Shown: in pieces, positions 13,663-44,007 of the stretch
How the letters are laid out: the number at the start of each line of letters is the position of its first letter
Position numbering within the stretch: the stretch's first letter is position 1
Assembly (NCBI GenBank): GCA_003278365.1
Contig: QCFS01000003.1
Coordinates: 1 to 64,000, forward strand
DNA: 64,000 bases
Source of the DNA: Prochlorococcus sp. AG-363-M17
Lineage (GTDB): Bacteria > Cyanobacteriota > Cyanobacteriia > PCC-6307 > Cyanobiaceae
Direction: 5' to 3'
Translations under genes and position numbers: made by a program
The notes under the pieces: model-generated
Databases searched by the model: none
What the model saw: the letters and a program-made list of their open reading frames with translations, nothing else
Told to the model about the DNA's origin: nothing

Positions 13663-15123
13663 TTATGGGATGCAGCTACCCTTCGGATGCTTTGCCATCA
13701 CATCAGAAGCTTTTTCGTACTGATGAGCTACTTGCAGCAAGCGGGATTCCTCTAGAACATTTGTTATCAGCTGAACGCCAATAGGAAGACCACCTCCATC
13801 AAAGCCACAAGGCAAACTTATTGATGGCAGCCCTGCAAGGTTGGCAGGAATGGTTAGCAGATCGGATAAGTACATTGCCAACGGATCATCAGCATGAGAT
13901 CCAGCTGCGAAAGCAGTTGTAGGGGCAGTTGGTGTCAACAATACATCTACTTTTTTAAAGGCATTGTCAAAATCGCGCCTTATCAAGCTCCTTACTTGTT
14001 GAGCTTTTTTGTAATAAGCATCTACATAACCCGCCGATAGAGCATAAGTTCCAATAAGAATTCTCCTCTGAACTTCATTCCCAAATCCTTCAGCTCGACT
14101 TTTTGAAGTCATGTCAATGAGGTTGTCTGATCCTTCAGAGCGATACCCATATTTAACGCCATCAAAGCGAGCCAAGTTAGAAGAGGCTTCTGAGGGAGCA
14201 ATGACGTAGTAAGTAGCAATTCCATCATTAAATCGGGGGCAAGATATCTCAACCAATTCCGCACCTAACTCCTCTAGCTGAGTAGCCGCCGCCATGACCG
14301 AAGCTGTGACTTCAGACGAAAGGCCTTTCTGGTCAAAGCACTCCTTGATCAAGCCAACTTTTAAACCATTTATTGGCTGATCAAGTGAAGCACAATAGTC
14401 AGGAACAGGAGCTTTTAAACAAGTGGAATCCCTTGGATCAGCTCCAGCAATTACCTGCAAGACTTCAGCTGCATCAGCCACAGATGTTGCAAAAGGACCT
14501 ACTTGATCTAGGGAACTTGCAAATGCAACTAATCCCCACCGACTAACTCTTCCATAAGTTGGTTTTAGGCCAACAACTCCGCAGAAAGAAGCAGGTTGAC
14601 GGATCGAACCTCCTGTATCTGATCCGAGTGCGACCATGCATTCTCCAGATGCAACAGCTGCTGCACTTCCACCAGAACTACCCCCAGGAACTTTTGATAA
14701 ATCCCAGGGATTTGAGGTTGGTCCAAAAGCAGAGGTCTCTGTTGAACTCCCCATCGCAAACTCATCGAGATTCGTTTTACCTAAAAGCACAGCTCCAGCT
14801 TTCCAAAGCCTTTCAGTAACAGTTGATTCATAAGGCGCTACAAAGTTCTCAAGCATCTTGCTTGAGCAGGTTGTGCTAATGCCTTTTGTACATAAGTTGT
14901 CTTTTATAGCTATCGGAACTCCCGCTAAGGGAGGCAAGGATTCTCCAGCTGCCAAAGAATTATCTATTTGATCAGCTTCAGCAAGTGCCCTATCAGAAGT
15001 GACAGTCAAAAATGCCTTAATGGAGGGGTCGACCTCCTCTATCCGCCGGATGTACTGTTCAACAAGCTCTCTAGCGGAAATTTCACCTCGCCGTAACCTT
15101 CCTCGCAATAGATCTATAGCCAT
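13663..15123 (-). CDS. gatA: Asp-tRNA(Asn)/Glu-tRNA(Gln) amidotransferase subunit A
   Basis: Amidase signature [37 protein letters not shown]. Confidence 0.97.
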
Positions 15124-22277: not shown

Positions 22278-22383
22278 GTTTAAAAACGATAATTATAATG
22301 AATGTATGAAAAGATAAACGATCAAGAAACATCAAAAACACTTGATGCCACTTAAAGATTAACTCCTCCAACTAATCATCATT

Positions 22384-35129: not shown

Positions 35130-36401
35130 ATGAAAGCAAGATCGGAAACTGAACCGTGGGTATCGAGTCTGAGGACCTTTATACGGGATTCTCTTGGTAA
35201 TAGTTGGCAGGTCAAAGACAAAGGAGGAACCACTAACCTGCGGATTCGCTTAGACGATGGAACAAGGGTTTATCGAAATCTTGGTTTGCCATGGTGCAAA
35301 GCATCTGCAGCAAGCATTCGAGAATCAGTAGAAGAAATCCACGAACTTGTCATACACCAAAAGGTCTCAGTTGATGAGGCAGTGAAACGAGTCAAGCAAA
35401 CACGATCTAAAACTCCTAAAGCAGCAAGACGAGCGAATCCAAAACTCCTCATCACTGCATGGGAGAGCTATGAGAACTACAAAGTCAATGTCAGTGGAGA
35501 CGTGAGTCAAAAGACATGGGACGTTGAATATGGCAAAACGTTCCGCAGGCTCAAAGAAATTGCAGCATCGAATGCTAATGATCTACTGATTGAAATTGGC
35601 AAACAATACGAACCAGGATCGAGAAGCAGACAGATCAGAGTTCAACATATAGCTGCCTTTTTGCGGTGGGCCACCTCTAGAGCATCAGGTCATTTCTTAC
35701 CTGCTGATAACTGGACTCCCCCGCCTAAAAATGCCCTAGGAGACTATGTGGGACGCAAGTCTGCCAAGAAGCAACAAGAGTCCTCTAATCCGACTGTGGT
35801 TATAGAAGATGAGGATCTGCTGGGGCTGATCAACTCACTACCGATTGATCTTGATAAGGCTGAGAAGAAACACCGATTACGTGATCGTGCAATGGAATGG
35901 GATCTAGCTCTCAAGCTTGCAATTGTTTATGGATTGCGTCCCATCGAAGTCAGTTACGACTATTTAGAGATTAAAAAGAATGGAAAAGACTATCTGTTCT
36001 GTACCTACTGCAAGAAAGCTGGTGGAGGCATTACTAAACCCAGAAGACTATGGCCCCTACATCCTGAGTGGGAGGAGAAGTGGAAACTCGTTCAAAGAAT
36101 CAAACGCAAAGACCCTCTTCCCCGAATGAAAGCAGGTGCTGGTGATGCTTTTAAAAATTACCTGCGCTTTAACCAAGTTTGGAAAAGACTAAAGGCTGAG
36201 AGTGGAGTAGTGCCCTACAGCTTCCGGCATTCGTACAGTAAACGAGGGCATCAGGTCTACAAGCTTTCTGATACAGAGATGGCCGCCTTTATGGGTCACA
36301 CCGTCCAAGTACATAACGCTGCTTATGCCCAATGGAGCAGTGAATCAATGTTGGAAGCATCGATGGAACGCGGTATTCGATATAGAGATCTCACCTCTTA
36401 A
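35130..36401 (+). CDS. tyrosine recombinase / integrase
   Basis: 423 aa; catalytic motifs YGLRPIEV, YSFRHSYSKRGH and FMGHTVQVHNAAYAQW; adjacent to an att repeat. Confidence 0.9.
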   Translation: MKARSETEPWVSSLRTFIRDSLGNSWQVKDKGGTTNLRIRLDDGTRVYRNLGLPWCKASAASIRESVEEIHELVIHQKVSVDEAVKRVKQTRSKTPKAARRANPKLLITAWESYENYKVNVSGDVSQKTWDVEYGKTFRRLKEIAASNANDLLIEIGKQYEPGSRSRQIRVQHIAAFLRWATSRASGHFLPADNWTPPPKNALGDYVGRKSAKKQQESSNPTVVIEDEDLLGLINSLPIDLDKAEKKHRLRDRAMEWDLALKLAIVYGLRPIEVSYDYLEIKKNGKDYLFCTYCKKAGGGITKPRRLWPLHPEWEEKWKLVQRIKRKDPLPRMKAGAGDAFKNYLRFNQVWKRLKAESGVVPYSFRHSYSKRGHQVYKLSDTEMAAFMGHTVQVHNAAYAQWSSESMLEASMERGIRYRDLTS

Positions 36402-36724
36402 CTTGTTAATTGATGAGTACAACTAGAGTCTTCTAAGCTCATATCTACTAACCAATCTTTATCGATGCCAAGGAGTTCAATAGCCTTTAATTCAAAACCA
36501 TCAAGTTCAAAGTAGTTGTAAGGAACCTTTACCCGTAAGGTTAATTGCCCCTCTTCTCTTGAAATGGAGTGATTGGAAAATCCAAGTTCTTCCAAATTTC
36601 CATCAACATCATTTGAGATAGTTAGTCTTAAGATCTTCTTTAGATTCCATGGGGATTTATCCATGAAACTTGCTTGATCTTCCCAGTATTGTTTATAAGC
36701 ATGGAACCCTTTCTTGATGTTCAT
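36398..36724 (-). CDS. hypothetical protein, copy 1 of a duplicated gene
   Basis: 108 aa MNIKKGFHAYKQYWEDQ..., differs from 43646..43972 by G/E plus the final residue. Confidence 0.65.
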   Translation of the reverse strand: MNIKKGFHAYKQYWEDQASFMDKSPWNLKKILRLTISNDVDGNLEELGFSNHSISREEGQLTLRVKVPYNYFELDGFELKAIELLGIDKDWLVDMSLEDSSCTHQLTS

Positions 36725-36759
36725 TGCTCACTCCATTTAAAGTTGATTAAGGGTTATAG
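36403..36759. repeat. 357-bp direct repeat, copy 1
   Basis: Identical to 43651-44007 except C36582 versus T43830, comparing the full sequence by eye. Confidence 0.92.
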
Positions 36760-37158: not shown

Positions 37159-37797
37159 TCACCGAATAACTGGTTGATTCGACAGCAAAATGCGTCCATT
37201 CTTAGATTTCTTTAGCCAGCCATCATCCTTTAAATGATTCATCATTCTTGTCACAGTAACACGAGTAATTCCTAATGCATCTGCTATTTGGTCATGATTT
37301 ATCTTAAAGCCAAAGACGATACCACCTTCGACTACATGTCCAAAGTCAAGAGCAAGCATTTCAAGAAATGCTTGCATTTTCTTTTTTGTATTCTTTATAC
37401 CTAAAACAACTAAGAATGATTCCACATAATTATTGCGAGCAACAATTGATTGAAATATTAACTGCGAGATAGATCCCGAAGCATAAGCTTCATCTATGTT
37501 TAAACAAAGGACATCACAATCACAAAGAGCCAAGGCATTGTATCCATCAATTCTAGACAAAGGTTCACCAAAAGATTGTCCAGGCCCTACAAACCCAAGC
37601 ACAGATACGGCCTCATTTTTGTTCTCTGCAGATAAAAAAGCAGCGCCTCGAACTAAGAGCCATATCTGATTTTTCAGCATAGGAAAAAAACTTTTTGCTG
37701 AGATGTGCACAAGATTTCTTTTTGCATAAGTAGTTTCCAAAAACTCAAGGGCTCCTTCGTAAGAGTCGATGAGACTTGGTCTTTCAAGCAAAGTCAA
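37159..37797 (-). CDS. ptrA: Crp/Fnr-family transcriptional regulator, PtrA-like
   Basis: Cyclic-nucleotide-binding-like N-terminus, HTH DQIADALGITRVTVTRMMNHLKDDGWL; divergent from pstS as in Prochlorococcus phosphate clusters. Confidence 0.75.
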   Translation of the reverse strand: MTLLERPSLIDSYEGALEFLETTYAKRNLVHISAKSFFPMLKNQIWLLVRGAAFLSAENKNEAVSVLGFVGPGQSFGEPLSRIDGYNALALCDCDVLCLNIDEAYASGSISQLIFQSIVARNNYVESFLVVLGIKNTKKKMQAFLEMLALDFGHVVEGGIVFGFKINHDQIADALGITRVTVTRMMNHLKDDGWLKKSKNGRILLSNQPVIR

Positions 37798-37881
37798 ATG
37801 AATCCTCCAGGCAGATAAAGAAAGCTCACTGATGCCCTAGGGCAAAGGCGAAGCAATGGCAACACCTTACATCAAATCTTC

Positions 37882-37923
37882 TTGATGCATCAACAAGGCT
37901 TGATCTTATCAAGATATTTTGAT
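37882..37923. promoter_or_regulatory. tandem ArsR-type operators between ptrA and pstS
   Basis: TTGAT-GC-ATCAA-CAAGGC-TTGAT-CTT-ATCAA-GATATT-TTGAT: two exact ATCAA-N6-TTGAT repeats (37889-37904, 37908-37923). Confidence 0.65.
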
Positions 37924-37955: not shown

Positions 37956-38957
37956 ATGACCTTCTCAAGGAAGGTGATTTCCTTCGCTTCTATTGCCACC
38001 CTTGGGGCTGGCATCGTTGCATGTGGAACAACTGATTCAACCTCCAGTGTTCGCCTAAGTGGTGCTGGAGCATCTTTCCCCGCAAAGATCTACACCCGAT
38101 GGTTCTCTGATCTGGCTAAATCTGGAGGGCCAAAGGTTAACTACCAAGCCGTTGGGTCTGGGTCTGGGCGTAAAGCATTCATTGATCAAACCGTTGACTT
38201 TGGAGCTTCGGATGATCCGATGAAAGCGAAAGACATCGCCAAGGTCACTCGTGGCTTAGTGCAAATTCCTATGGTGGGAGGCACCATCGCCTTTGGCTAC
38301 AACAAGCCAGATTGTGATCTTAAGTTGACCCAACTCCAAGCGGTCAGAGTCGCAATGGGTAAAATCAAAGACTGGAGAAAACTCGGTTGTCCTGCTGGAA
38401 AACTCACTTGGGTCCATCGTTCTGATGGTTCAGGAACGACCAAAGCTTTTACCAATTCAATGCAAGCTTTCTCAAATGACTCCAGTGAATGGTCTCTAGG
38501 TACTGGTAAATCAGTCAAGTGGCCAGCAGGTGTAGGGGGCAAAGGCAACGCAGGGGTCGCAGGTTTAATCAGACAAACACCTGGAGCCATCGGTTACGTC
38601 AACCAGTCCTACATAAGAGGGGACGTAAGAGCCGCAGCTCTACAAAACCTTTCAGGTGAATTCTTGAAGCCAAGCACCAAAGCAGGAGCTGCGGCTCTAA
38701 ACGGAATCAGATTGGATCGAAATCTTGCAGGTAAAAATCCAAATCCAACTGCAAGAGGTGCCTATCCAATCGCTACTCTGACTTGGGTTCTAGCTTACGA
38801 AACAGGCAATGGTTCTAAAACAGAAGCCATTAAAGAATCACTAAAATATCTTTTAAGTAATAAGGCTCAAGCAAAAGCTCCAACTTTAGGATTCGTTCCT
38901 CTTAAAGGAGACATTCTTAAAAAAGCTCGTTCAGCTGTCAATAGGATTGGGAAGTAA
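37956..38957 (+). CDS. pstS: phosphate ABC transporter substrate-binding protein
   Basis: Lipoprotein-like IVACGTT; LSGAGASFPAKIYTRWFSDL...YQAVGSGSGRKAFIDQTVDFGASDDPM...HRSDGSGTTKAF. Confidence 0.95.
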   Translation: MTFSRKVISFASIATLGAGIVACGTTDSTSSVRLSGAGASFPAKIYTRWFSDLAKSGGPKVNYQAVGSGSGRKAFIDQTVDFGASDDPMKAKDIAKVTRGLVQIPMVGGTIAFGYNKPDCDLKLTQLQAVRVAMGKIKDWRKLGCPAGKLTWVHRSDGSGTTKAFTNSMQAFSNDSSEWSLGTGKSVKWPAGVGGKGNAGVAGLIRQTPGAIGYVNQSYIRGDVRAAALQNLSGEFLKPSTKAGAAALNGIRLDRNLAGKNPNPTARGAYPIATLTWVLAYETGNGSKTEAIKESLKYLLSNKAQAKAPTLGFVPLKGDILKKARSAVNRIGK

Positions 38958-39337: not shown

Positions 39338-40576
39338 CTACAAAAATAAAATTTGGATGGTCATACCTAGGGCAATAGATATCGCAACTAATTTATAAGG
39401 CTTTATGGATTGTTTAAAACTTATGATTAGACTAATAAAAAAGATTAGACTATAAATACAAGTTTCAAAGATATTTTTGCCAAAAATGACCTTACCCGTC
39501 ATCGGTATGACTACGGCAAGAATTGCACCCGGTATGCCTGATAACACTCCATTAATATAGTTGGCTATACTTACTTTTGTTTTGATCCTTTGTATCAAAG
39601 GGTCCCCTAGAAGAATAAAAATAAAACTTGGTAAAAATATCGCGAATGTTGAGATGAGGGAGAAAAATGTTCCTAAAAGAATAGATCCTTCTTTTGCACC
39701 AACTTGAAAACCTATAAATGCACTTGAAAGAACTACTGGCCCTGGAGAGAGTTGACCTATGGCTATAGCATCAATAAAACTACGACTATCCAACCAACCC
39801 ATCTCAATTACTTGAGTTTGTAGAAGTGGAATAATTACTAGCCCTCCACCAAAAACCAGCAAACCTGCTTTAAAGAATACATAAAATAACTTTAAAGAGT
39901 TGGATGATAGATTGCCTATATCTTCTCGAAATATTGGAACCGTTAAAAAACTTGGGAAACTAAATGAACTTAGATCGACATAAGAATGCTCAAAGCCAGA
40001 AGGAATAAAGAAAAAACTCAGAAATCTCTTTGAATTATTTTGATAGATTCCGAAAATTCCAGCTAGCAATAAAAGCAATGTAATAGGTAAATGGAGTGAA
40101 GTTGATCTATCAATAATTGACCCAATAAATACAAAAATAGCTATTGTCAATTGCCATACTTGGCTACGTTTTTTTAATAGGTTTAAAGCAAAACCCCAAA
40201 TGATTGAAGTTACAATTATTTGAGGAATAGACAAAAAAACCGGAAAATTTTCAAATGATTGTCCATGTCTCCAAAGTTGGCTCAAAAGTAAAATGATGAA
40301 AAATCCAGGCAATAAAAAACATATCCCACTTATCAATCCTCCGTAAAAACCTTTTATCTTTGTCCCTAAAAAGATTGCTAATTGGCTTGATGTCGGCCCA
40401 GGTAATATTTCGCAAATACCCAATCCTTGATCAAACTCTTGCTCAGAAACCCAATTCCTTTGAGTTATGATCTCGTCTTTAAACATAGCTATGTGCGCAA
40501 ATGGGCCACCAAAACTAAAGAGTCCTATTCTCAGAAAAGTTGAACTCAGTTCAGTAAATCTTGCGGTCACTTTCAA
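39338..40576 (-). CDS. chrA: chromate transporter ChrA
   Basis: FLRIGLFSFGGPFAHIAMFKDEII...CEILPGPTSSQLAIFLG...and second-half FKAGLLVFGGGLVIIPLLQ...IGQLSPGPV. Confidence 0.93.
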   Translation of the reverse strand: MKVTARFTELSSTFLRIGLFSFGGPFAHIAMFKDEIITQRNWVSEQEFDQGLGICEILPGPTSSQLAIFLGTKIKGFYGGLISGICFLLPGFFIILLLSQLWRHGQSFENFPVFLSIPQIIVTSIIWGFALNLLKKRSQVWQLTIAIFVFIGSIIDRSTSLHLPITLLLLLAGIFGIYQNNSKRFLSFFFIPSGFEHSYVDLSSFSFPSFLTVPIFREDIGNLSSNSLKLFYVFFKAGLLVFGGGLVIIPLLQTQVIEMGWLDSRSFIDAIAIGQLSPGPVVLSSAFIGFQVGAKEGSILLGTFFSLISTFAIFLPSFIFILLGDPLIQRIKTKVSIANYINGVLSGIPGAILAVVIPMTGKVIFGKNIFETCIYSLIFFISLIISFKQSIKPYKLVAISIALGMTIQILFL

Positions 40577-40628: not shown

Positions 40629-41891
40629 TCAGGCTTTTTCAATGGCTATAGCACTTGAAACTGGTGGTAGTCGTAGACTTGTCAACAATGAGATAAATAC
40701 AAATAAGCTTGAACACCATAAACATAGTTGCATTCCTATAGAGGCATTTGTACCAAGCATGAATAGGACACCTGATAAGAGCGTACCAATCAGTCTTCCA
40801 GCCGCATTTGCCATGTAATAGAAGCCCACGTTTAGACTTACGTTTTCCTTATCCGTATATGCAAGAACCATATATGAATGTATCGATGAGTTCATTGCAA
40901 AAATGAATCCAAATGTTATTAATCCAACTGTAATTGCTATTTCTGGATTGCTATGTCGCCATAGTGCTATAGCTATTAAAGCTGGTATTGCCGTTAAGAC
41001 AGCGCTCCAGAATTGAACAGAAGAAACTCCTGGGCTTGTTTTATTTCCCCATAAATTTCTTAAAGACGGCGCAAACGCTTGGATAAAGCCATAACCAATA
41101 ACCCAGAATCCTAGGAAAGCTCCAATCTCAGAAAAATTCCAATTTAGATACGTTTCAAGAAAAACAGGTAGTGCTACGACGAACCATACGTCTCTTGCCC
41201 CAAAGAGAAAAAAGCGTGCAAAAGAGAGGACATTGATCCCTTCAGATTTAGAAAATAAGTCTTTGAAGATTGGTTTGCTTTTCATCTTCCCAATATCTCC
41301 AGGCAAAATTAATGTCAATAAAAACGAAACACCTAAACCGATTGCCATTAATTCAACTGCTTTATTAAAACCAAAACTGGTCAGCAAAAGTCCACCAAGA
41401 AAAAAGCCAACTCCTTTGAGTGCATTTTTTGAACCAGTTAAGATAGCAACCCATTTGAATAATTGATTATTTCCACCATCTTCTTCAGGGGAATCTGGAA
41501 CGACAGTTTTGATTGCACTTTTGGCACTCATTTTATTGAGATCCTTTGCTACACCACTAATCGCTTGAGCAACCATGACATAAATGACACTCAAAAGTTT
41601 CGACCAACCACTTGAAACTGGTATCAACATCAATAAGGCACCTATTTGTAAAAGTGTCCCTACCCATAGTGTTAGACGTAATCCATATCTTGCTCCAATC
41701 CATCCACCATAGAGATTAGTGACGATGCCAAAGAACTCGTAAAAAAGGAATAAGAATGCGATTTCTAAGGTTGTATATCCAAGGCTATGAAAGTGAAAAA
41801 TCACTAGCATCCTTAGAGCACCATCTGTCAGAGTGAATGCCCAATAGTTGGTCGTTACGATCCCGTATTGCTGTAGTGACGATAATTTCAT
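40629..41891 (-). CDS. arsJ: organoarsenical efflux MFS transporter ArsJ
   Basis: YGIVTTNYWAFTLTDGALRMLVIFHFHSLGYTTLEIAFLFLFYEFFGIVTNLYGGWIGAR; next to a GAPDH gene. Confidence 0.9.
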   Translation of the reverse strand: MKLSSLQQYGIVTTNYWAFTLTDGALRMLVIFHFHSLGYTTLEIAFLFLFYEFFGIVTNLYGGWIGARYGLRLTLWVGTLLQIGALLMLIPVSSGWSKLLSVIYVMVAQAISGVAKDLNKMSAKSAIKTVVPDSPEEDGGNNQLFKWVAILTGSKNALKGVGFFLGGLLLTSFGFNKAVELMAIGLGVSFLLTLILPGDIGKMKSKPIFKDLFSKSEGINVLSFARFFLFGARDVWFVVALPVFLETYLNWNFSEIGAFLGFWVIGYGFIQAFAPSLRNLWGNKTSPGVSSVQFWSAVLTAIPALIAIALWRHSNPEIAITVGLITFGFIFAMNSSIHSYMVLAYTDKENVSLNVGFYYMANAAGRLIGTLLSGVLFMLGTNASIGMQLCLWCSSLFVFISLLTSLRLPPVSSAIAIEKA

Positions 41892-41902
41892 TTGGTTATC
41901 TT

Positions 41903-42931
41903 TTAACCTTTGCTATCTAGATTCACGACATAAGAAGTCAAGTCAGCCATCCGACAGCTATAACCCCATTCATTGTCATACCAGGCAAAAACCTTTAATT
42001 GATTCTCATCTATAACCATTGTGGACAAAGCATCAATAATTGAACTGCGTGAATCATTGACGTAGTCAATAGAGACTAAGGGTCTTTCTTCATAACCAAG
42101 AATTCCTTTTAAGTCTCCTTCCGCTGCACGTTGAAAAGCGTCATTAACCTCTTGAACTGAGACCTTTCTCTCAAGTTCGAAAACGGCATCAGTCAGGGAT
42201 GCATTCAACAGTGGAACACGTACAGCATGTCCGTTTAATTTGCCTTGAAGCTCTGGGAAAATCATGCCTATTGCCTTCGCCGAACCGGTAGTAGTAGGAA
42301 TAAGACTTTGAATGCTGCTACGGGCTCGTCTTAGATCACTTTTAAATGAGTCAATTGGCACTTGTGTATTCGTGATGTCATGGAGTGTGGTAATGGCTCC
42401 ATGGATAATGCCAAAACTTTCATTGACAACTTTGACAACTGGTGCCAAGCAATTGGTTGTACACGATGCAGCTGTGACTAGTCGATGAATCTTAGGGTCG
42501 TAAAGATTATGGTTGATTCCATAGACGATATTTAGAGCTTCTGTCCCTGCCACTTCACCTGTCACGGGACAAGCAACAACAACTCTTTTAATGCCACACT
42601 GATCAAAGTAAGGGTTTAATAGTTCTGGTGTTTTTATCTTTCCACTGCATTCCAGAACAAAGTCAACACCCGCCTGCTCCCATGGAACATTAGTGGGAGC
42701 ACTCTCTTGCGAGTAGCTAAGAAATTGACCATCAATCTTGATCCCTTTTAAGTCGGAATCAATGTGCTGGTCCCAACGACCATGAACGGAGTCAAATTCC
42801 AGTAGATGAGCTGCTGTTGGAGCATCTCCTGCTGGGTCATTGATATGAACGAGTTCAATATTGGAACGACCCCATAAGGCACGAAAAACTAAGCGGCCAA
42901 TCCGACCAAAACCATTAATACCAATGCGCAT
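41903..42931 (-). CDS. ArsJ-associated glyceraldehyde-3-phosphate dehydrogenase
   Basis: [19 protein letters not shown]...[16 protein letters not shown]...[13 protein letters not shown]; arsJ immediately downstream. Confidence 0.92.
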
Positions 42932-42994: not shown

Positions 42995-43028
42995 ATCAAT
43001 TTATTTTGATATATCAACCCTGCTTGGT
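42995..43028. promoter_or_regulatory. tandem ArsR-type operators between GAPDH and arsR
   Basis: ATCAA-TTTATT-TTGAT-AT-ATCAA-CCCTGC-TTGGT: one exact and one single-mismatch ATCAA-N6-TTGAT. Confidence 0.65.
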
Positions 43029-43091: not shown

Positions 43092-43421
43092 ATGGGAGCA
43101 GTAGTTGCTGAAGAAAATGTGCTTGCGGCAAGTCAAGCCAGTGGGCTTCTCAAGGCCTTAGCCGATCCTCTTCGTATGGAAGTCATTCAATCTTTATCAG
43201 AAGGAGAGTGTTGTGTTTGTGATCTGATGAAAAAGACAGATCTTGCACAATCACGCCTTTCATTTCATCTCAAGGTTCTAAAAGATTCAGGATTAATTAC
43301 AGACCGTCAAAGCGGACGTTGGGTGTACTACAAATTGGATCTAAAAGCGTTTCAATTATTAGAAGATTGGATAGCTGATCTGAAAAAGAGTTGTAAGAAT
43401 GCAGCAAAGCCTTGTTCTTAA
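43092..43421 (+). CDS. arsR: ArsR-family transcriptional repressor
   Basis: LLKALADPLRMEVIQSLSEGECCVCDLMKKTDLAQSRLSFHLKVLKDSGLITDRQSGRWVYYKL. Confidence 0.93.
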   Translation: MGAVVAEENVLAASQASGLLKALADPLRMEVIQSLSEGECCVCDLMKKTDLAQSRLSFHLKVLKDSGLITDRQSGRWVYYKLDLKAFQLLEDWIADLKKSCKNAAKPCS

Positions 43422-43645: not shown

Positions 43646-43972
43646 TTACTTTGTTAATTGATGAGTACAACTAGAGTCTTCTAAGCTCATATCTACTAAC
43701 CAATCTTTATCGATGCCAAGGAGTTCAATAGCCTTTAATTCAAAACCATCAAGTTCAAAGTAGTTGTAAGGAACCTTTACCCGTAAGGTTAATTGCCCCT
43801 CTTCTCTTGAAATGGAGTGATTGGAAAATTCAAGTTCTTCCAAATTTCCATCAACATCATTTGAGATAGTTAGTCTTAAGATCTTCTTTAGATTCCATGG
43901 GGATTTATCCATGAAACTTGCTTGATCTTCCCAGTATTGTTTATAAGCATGGAACCCTTTCTTGATGTTCAT
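43646..43972 (-). CDS. hypothetical protein, copy 2 of a duplicated gene
   Basis: Near identical to 36398..36724. Confidence 0.65.
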   Translation of the reverse strand: MNIKKGFHAYKQYWEDQASFMDKSPWNLKKILRLTISNDVDGNLEELEFSNHSISREEGQLTLRVKVPYNYFELDGFELKAIELLGIDKDWLVDMSLEDSSCTHQLTK

Positions 43973-44007
43973 TGCTCACTCCATTTAAAGTTGATTAAGG
44001 GTTATAG
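43651..44007. repeat. 357-bp direct repeat, copy 2
   Basis: One mismatch to 36403-36759. Confidence 0.92.

Follow-up and report, generated by a model that had tools for sequence, protein, structure and literature searches.

ArsR is predicted to bind a tandem operator at positions 42995-43028 of a 64,000-nucleotide stretch of Prochlorococcus sp. AG-363-M17 DNA (the window), in the gap between arsR and a divergent GAPDH-arsJ unit. The tandem would control arsR on one side and GAPDH-arsJ, perhaps with chrA, on the other, and the same ArsR would act on a triple site between a ptrA-like gene and pstS. We place the probability of this reading at about 0.88. The operator itself is a new instance of an already known ArsR operator type.

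The genes flanking the tandem were identified by profile matches, which bear out the placement given in the preliminary description. On the forward strand, arsR (43092..43421) has its likely start at ATG 43092 and encodes 109 aa, with the reading frame open from GTG 43041. Its product belongs to the ArsR/SmtB winged-helix family (HTH_5, 61.7 bits; NF033788, 91 bits, above cut-off) and carries the cysteine motif CVCDL. This motif and mostly C-terminal cysteines are conserved among ArsR homologues, which also have the recognition-helix region in common. On the reverse strand lie the ArsJ-associated glyceraldehyde-3-phosphate dehydrogenase (GAPDH; 41903..42931; NF033735, 549 bits, cut-off 450), the organoarsenical efflux transporter gene arsJ (40629..41891; NF033734, 574 bits, cut-off 400) and, in line with arsJ, a chromate-transporter-family gene, chrA (39338..40576; TIGR00937, 228 bits, cut-off 172). 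Farther left is a second divergent pair: pstS, encoding a phosphate-binding protein (37956..38957, forward; TIGR00975, 238 bits, cut-off 205), and a gene for a Crp-family regulator (37159..37797, reverse; uncertain TTG start codon). The latter scores 187 bits against the PtrA model NF053664, below the cut-off of 300, and is therefore best called "ptrA-like". Among named organisms, the cluster has its nearest relatives in Prochlorococcus; those in Synechococcus and Cyanobium are more distant. The recovered genome (1.4 Mb) encodes one HTH_5 ArsR protein, four Crp-type HTH proteins, ArsC and two pstS genes. No PhoB was found in it (best match 39% identical); absences from this genome are provisional because it is 74% complete.

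The tandem reads ATCAATTTATTTTGAT-AT-ATCAACCCTGCTTGGT, exactly as had been described: one exact and one single-mismatch copy of ATCAA-N6-TTGAT with an 18-bp period. Site 1 (42995..43010) is the exact copy and site 2 (43013..43028) ends in TTGGT; as predicted operator sites, neither is assigned a strand. Close relatives with GAPDH 97-99% identical have TTGAT in the second half-site, and the mismatch is therefore a derived, recent change. When up to three mismatches were allowed, the tandem pattern occurred twice in the window (0.02 expected), here and as an exact pair at 37871-37904. Each intergenic region was also dinucleotide-shuffled 20,000 times; no shuffle produced a tandem with one mismatch or fewer, and a single exact site arose in 0.05% of the arsR-GAPDH shuffles and 0.17% of the ptrA-pstS shuffles. 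The tandem is far beyond chance.

Conservation was assessed in the sequence upstream of ArsJ-associated GAPDH at 44 dereplicated picocyanobacterial loci, which are related rather than independent. An unbiased count of inverted repeats (all 5-mers, spacers of 0-10) returned ATCAA-N6-TTGAT as the commonest 5-bp inverted repeat, exact in 41 of the 44 regions. The runner-up (15/44) was the tandem's own junction, TTGAT-N2-ATCAA. The 18-bp tandem is found in 14 regions and a single site in most others. The motif follows arsR closely: it is present in 37 of 38 dereplicated regions with an adjacent arsR, and two of the three regions without an exact copy (L076 and L168) have no adjacent arsR. Two further GAPDH loci have the motif with no arsR beside it.

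The same motif has been linked to ArsR in Synechocystis sp. PCC 6803, where ArsR gave a DNase I footprint over a pair of direct repeats containing ATCAA(N)6TTGAT (Lopez-Maury 2003, via PMC4585019). As far as the available accounts go, this is the operator of the arsBHC operon, and its ArsR is an arsenic-resistance repressor responsive to reduced metalloids, as would be the case here (PMC4585019; PMC4010505). The two systems differ in detail. The repeats described for Synechocystis measure 17 bp, whereas the period in the window is 18 bp (PMC4585019), and arsR is unlinked in Synechocystis, whereas in the window it lies beside GAPDH-arsJ. The Synechocystis targets reported in these accounts are arsBHC and a few others (five genes in an arsR mutant), with no phosphate genes among them (PMC4585019; PMC4010505); those in the window are predicted to be GAPDH-arsJ and probably pstS and the ptrA-like gene. 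Although assigning the motif to ArsR relies on a footprint from a distant cyanobacterium, the match to that footprint, the conservation upstream of GAPDH and the single HTH_5 protein with CVCDL together support the earlier proposal that ArsR acts at the arsR-GAPDH tandem.

Three further exact copies, predicted to be of the ArsR type and again given no strand, lie between the ptrA-like gene and pstS: site A (37871..37886), site B (37889..37904; 18 bp from A) and site C (37908..37923; 19 bp from B). The triple arrangement is also found in three relatives (L048, L051 and L052). These copies have two candidate regulators, and the distributions of arsR and ptrA were thus compared. The motif precedes pstS in 18 of 26 dereplicated loci, the window included, in which pstS is linked to arsR and arsJ (it is missing from the other 8), and in none of the 13 in which arsR is not linked. 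The Fisher probability for this association (about 8e-5, computed with 18/27) is a guide only, because the loci are related. Eleven of the 13 have pstS paired with ptrA at a distance from ars genes, so the motif does not travel with ptrA (0/11). Nine arsR-linked pstS loci have it with no ptrA adjacent. In the 99% complete genome G058, where searches for PtrA and PhoB returned only background matches, tandem sites precede pstS and one site precedes GAPDH. From the linkage to arsR and the case of G058, the ptrA-pstS copies are probably ArsR sites and not PtrA sites, in agreement with the proposal in the preliminary description that they share the regulator of the arsR-GAPDH gap.

Is ArsR also the protein that reads the sites at phosphate genes? 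ArsR might be limited to the arsR-GAPDH pair, with another protein of the same or similar specificity acting at the phosphate genes. This alternative draws on sites that occur apart from arsR. A clean paralogue control, with unlinked pstS genes free of the site, held only in part: a single exact site was found at 4 of 20 pstS genes outside the cluster (0.02 expected), and the second pstS of the window genome has a one-mismatch site. Linkage to arsR is thus not absolute. An exact site is likewise found within 150 bp of phoB in 8 of the best 30 phoB matches, spread over three genera (0.016 expected). The exception to co-occurrence with arsR is G001: this genome, complete and from the same genus, has no detectable ArsR, and yet an exact site stands about 30 bp before an unlinked pstS (L230, 1233-1248). 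Either a relic or a different reader might account for this site. Against a separate reader, the pstS sites co-occur with arsR within clusters, the window genome has one HTH_5 ArsR, and G001 is a single case. We consider a second reader unlikely and favor ArsR at both sets of sites.

The reach of ArsR probably extends to phosphate regulators in several picocyanobacteria, since exact sites front ptrA, phoB and unlinked pstS genes. For instance, ptrA itself is preceded at 30-40 bp by an exact site in L044, L074 and L086, and a phoB-like gene has one just before it in L044 and L065. In the freshwater relatives L091, L096 and L172 it precedes a different pstS-family gene. In L058 (about 13960-14040), the operator survives along with a few bases that resemble a phoB start, where L065 has the phoB gene; this remnant suggests a recent loss of phoB.

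A second alternative assigns the sites to the adjacent Crp-family PtrA-like regulator, read as the Fnr-like TTGAT-N2-ATCAA. The triple site does sit in the ptrA-pstS gap, and the tandem's junction, counted above in 15 of 44 regions, contains this sequence. Many regions have a single site, however, and so no junction; the motif is absent from the ptrA-pstS loci away from ars genes and present where ptrA is missing, and G058 is without PtrA yet has sites. Furthermore, the recognition helix of the PtrA-like protein (TRVTVTR) matches its counterpart in the genome's NtcA-like protein (TRVTITR). NtcA recognises GTA-N8-TAC. The distribution and the recognition helix led us to reject the Fnr-like reading, which we regard as very improbable, and to retain ArsR.

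Across the recovered genome, 12 exact ATCAA-N6-TTGAT sites were found, against 2 for a reversed control pattern. All seven outside the window lie within ORFs and were rejected as members of the regulon. The fifth exact site in the window, at 22331, is intergenic; it shows no conservation in 11 family relatives and was also rejected. Conserved exact sites in intergenic DNA were therefore seen only in the cluster, which has four. A chance repeat with no function might account for the isolated copies in ORFs and for 22331, but for the tandem it is refuted by its absence from the shuffles and by the conservation in 41 of 44 regions.

A consensus promoter was looked for around the window sites and none was found. 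In other lineages, 17 of 48 regions upstream of GAPDH have a hexamer resembling a -10 element a single base beyond the operator. Over all genes such a hexamer was present in 34 of 86; shuffled flanks gave 23%, and the opposite side 26 of 86. Promoter overlap of the operator was not relied on, because this all-gene enrichment is weak and the window has no consensus promoter.

From what is known of the protein families, ArsR dimers would occupy both sites when arsenite is absent and keep both transcripts low. As(III), which would be made inside the cell from arsenate by its ArsC, would bind the cysteines of ArsR and release it, inducing arsR, GAPDH and ArsJ. GAPDH would then make 1-arseno-3-phosphoglycerate for export by ArsJ. 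The triple site in the ptrA-pstS gap would be occupied by this ArsR as well. With less support, pstS and the phosphate-type regulator may be derepressed along with the arsenate efflux genes, a logic by which phosphate-selective uptake would be raised once arsenate is inside the cell. The sites suggest arsenic control of part of the phosphate supply in this organism.

Links between ArsR and phosphate genes have been described elsewhere. In Agrobacterium tumefaciens 5A, ArsR1 represses the divergent pstS1 and phoB1 (Kang et al., via PMC7965956). As predicted for the window, ArsR there binds between divergent phosphate genes beside ars genes; the difference is that control there has been demonstrated by gel shift and RNA-seq, and that the motifs proposed in the available account of this only distantly related bacterium are unlike ATCAA-N6-TTGAT (PMC7965956). 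In cyanobacteria, arsenic-responsive co-regulation of arsR-pstS-gap3-MFS clusters has been proposed from gene order (PMC4284471). These clusters show the same gene association as the window, but the accessible parts of that paper describe no operators and do not mention ptrA or phoB in this context (PMC4284471). The Prochlorococcus-specific, PtrA-related regulator CK_00056804 has been found enriched in low-phosphorus waters, as have chrA and an arsenate efflux gene (PMC10119275). The ptrA-like gene of the window is probably of this kind; the difference is that ArsR control is not mentioned for CK_00056804 in the accessible text (PMC10119275).

A broader role can be put forward only tentatively. 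ArsR may have a standing role in regulating how Prochlorococcus and some Synechococcus scavenge phosphate, with intracellular arsenite as a signal of phosphate scarcity, and may substitute for PhoBR; we lean somewhat against this. If true, an ArsR operator would front phoB, ptrA and pstS, and arsenite would be a readout of the ratio of arsenate to phosphate taken up. ArsR would then stand in for PhoBR in lineages like that of the window, where no PhoB was found in the 74% complete genome, and may explain the control of pstS in Prochlorococcus lineages without PhoB. ATCAA-N6-TTGAT would serve as a reliable signature by which the ArsR regulon can be recognised in the most abundant photosynthetic organisms; the idea that open-ocean phosphate acquisition is partly set by arsenic becomes testable. 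The part worth following is the spread of the operator to phosphate regulators.

Several observations concern the surroundings of the cluster. In L044, a further tandem with a 19-bp period lies at 2928 and 2947, with no clear gene there, about 500 bp from the 108-aa ORF that is found beyond arsR. It recurs in L043, L045, L046, L214 and L215, exact except for one mismatched copy in L043, and possibly marks a small gene or RNA that ArsR controls and that has escaped annotation. In the window, the whole ptrA-pstS-chrA-arsJ-GAPDH-arsR cassette is bracketed by a near-identical direct repeat of about 355 bp (36404-36759 and 43652-44007, one mismatch, 7248 bp apart), each copy of which holds a 108-aa ORF. 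Through such repeats the cassette could be excised, duplicated or exchanged. Beside the left repeat, a 423-aa ORF (35130-36401) has no Pfam or NCBIfam match; its residue pattern resembles that of a tyrosine recombinase, and fragments or relatives of it are found near the same cassette in L048-L050.
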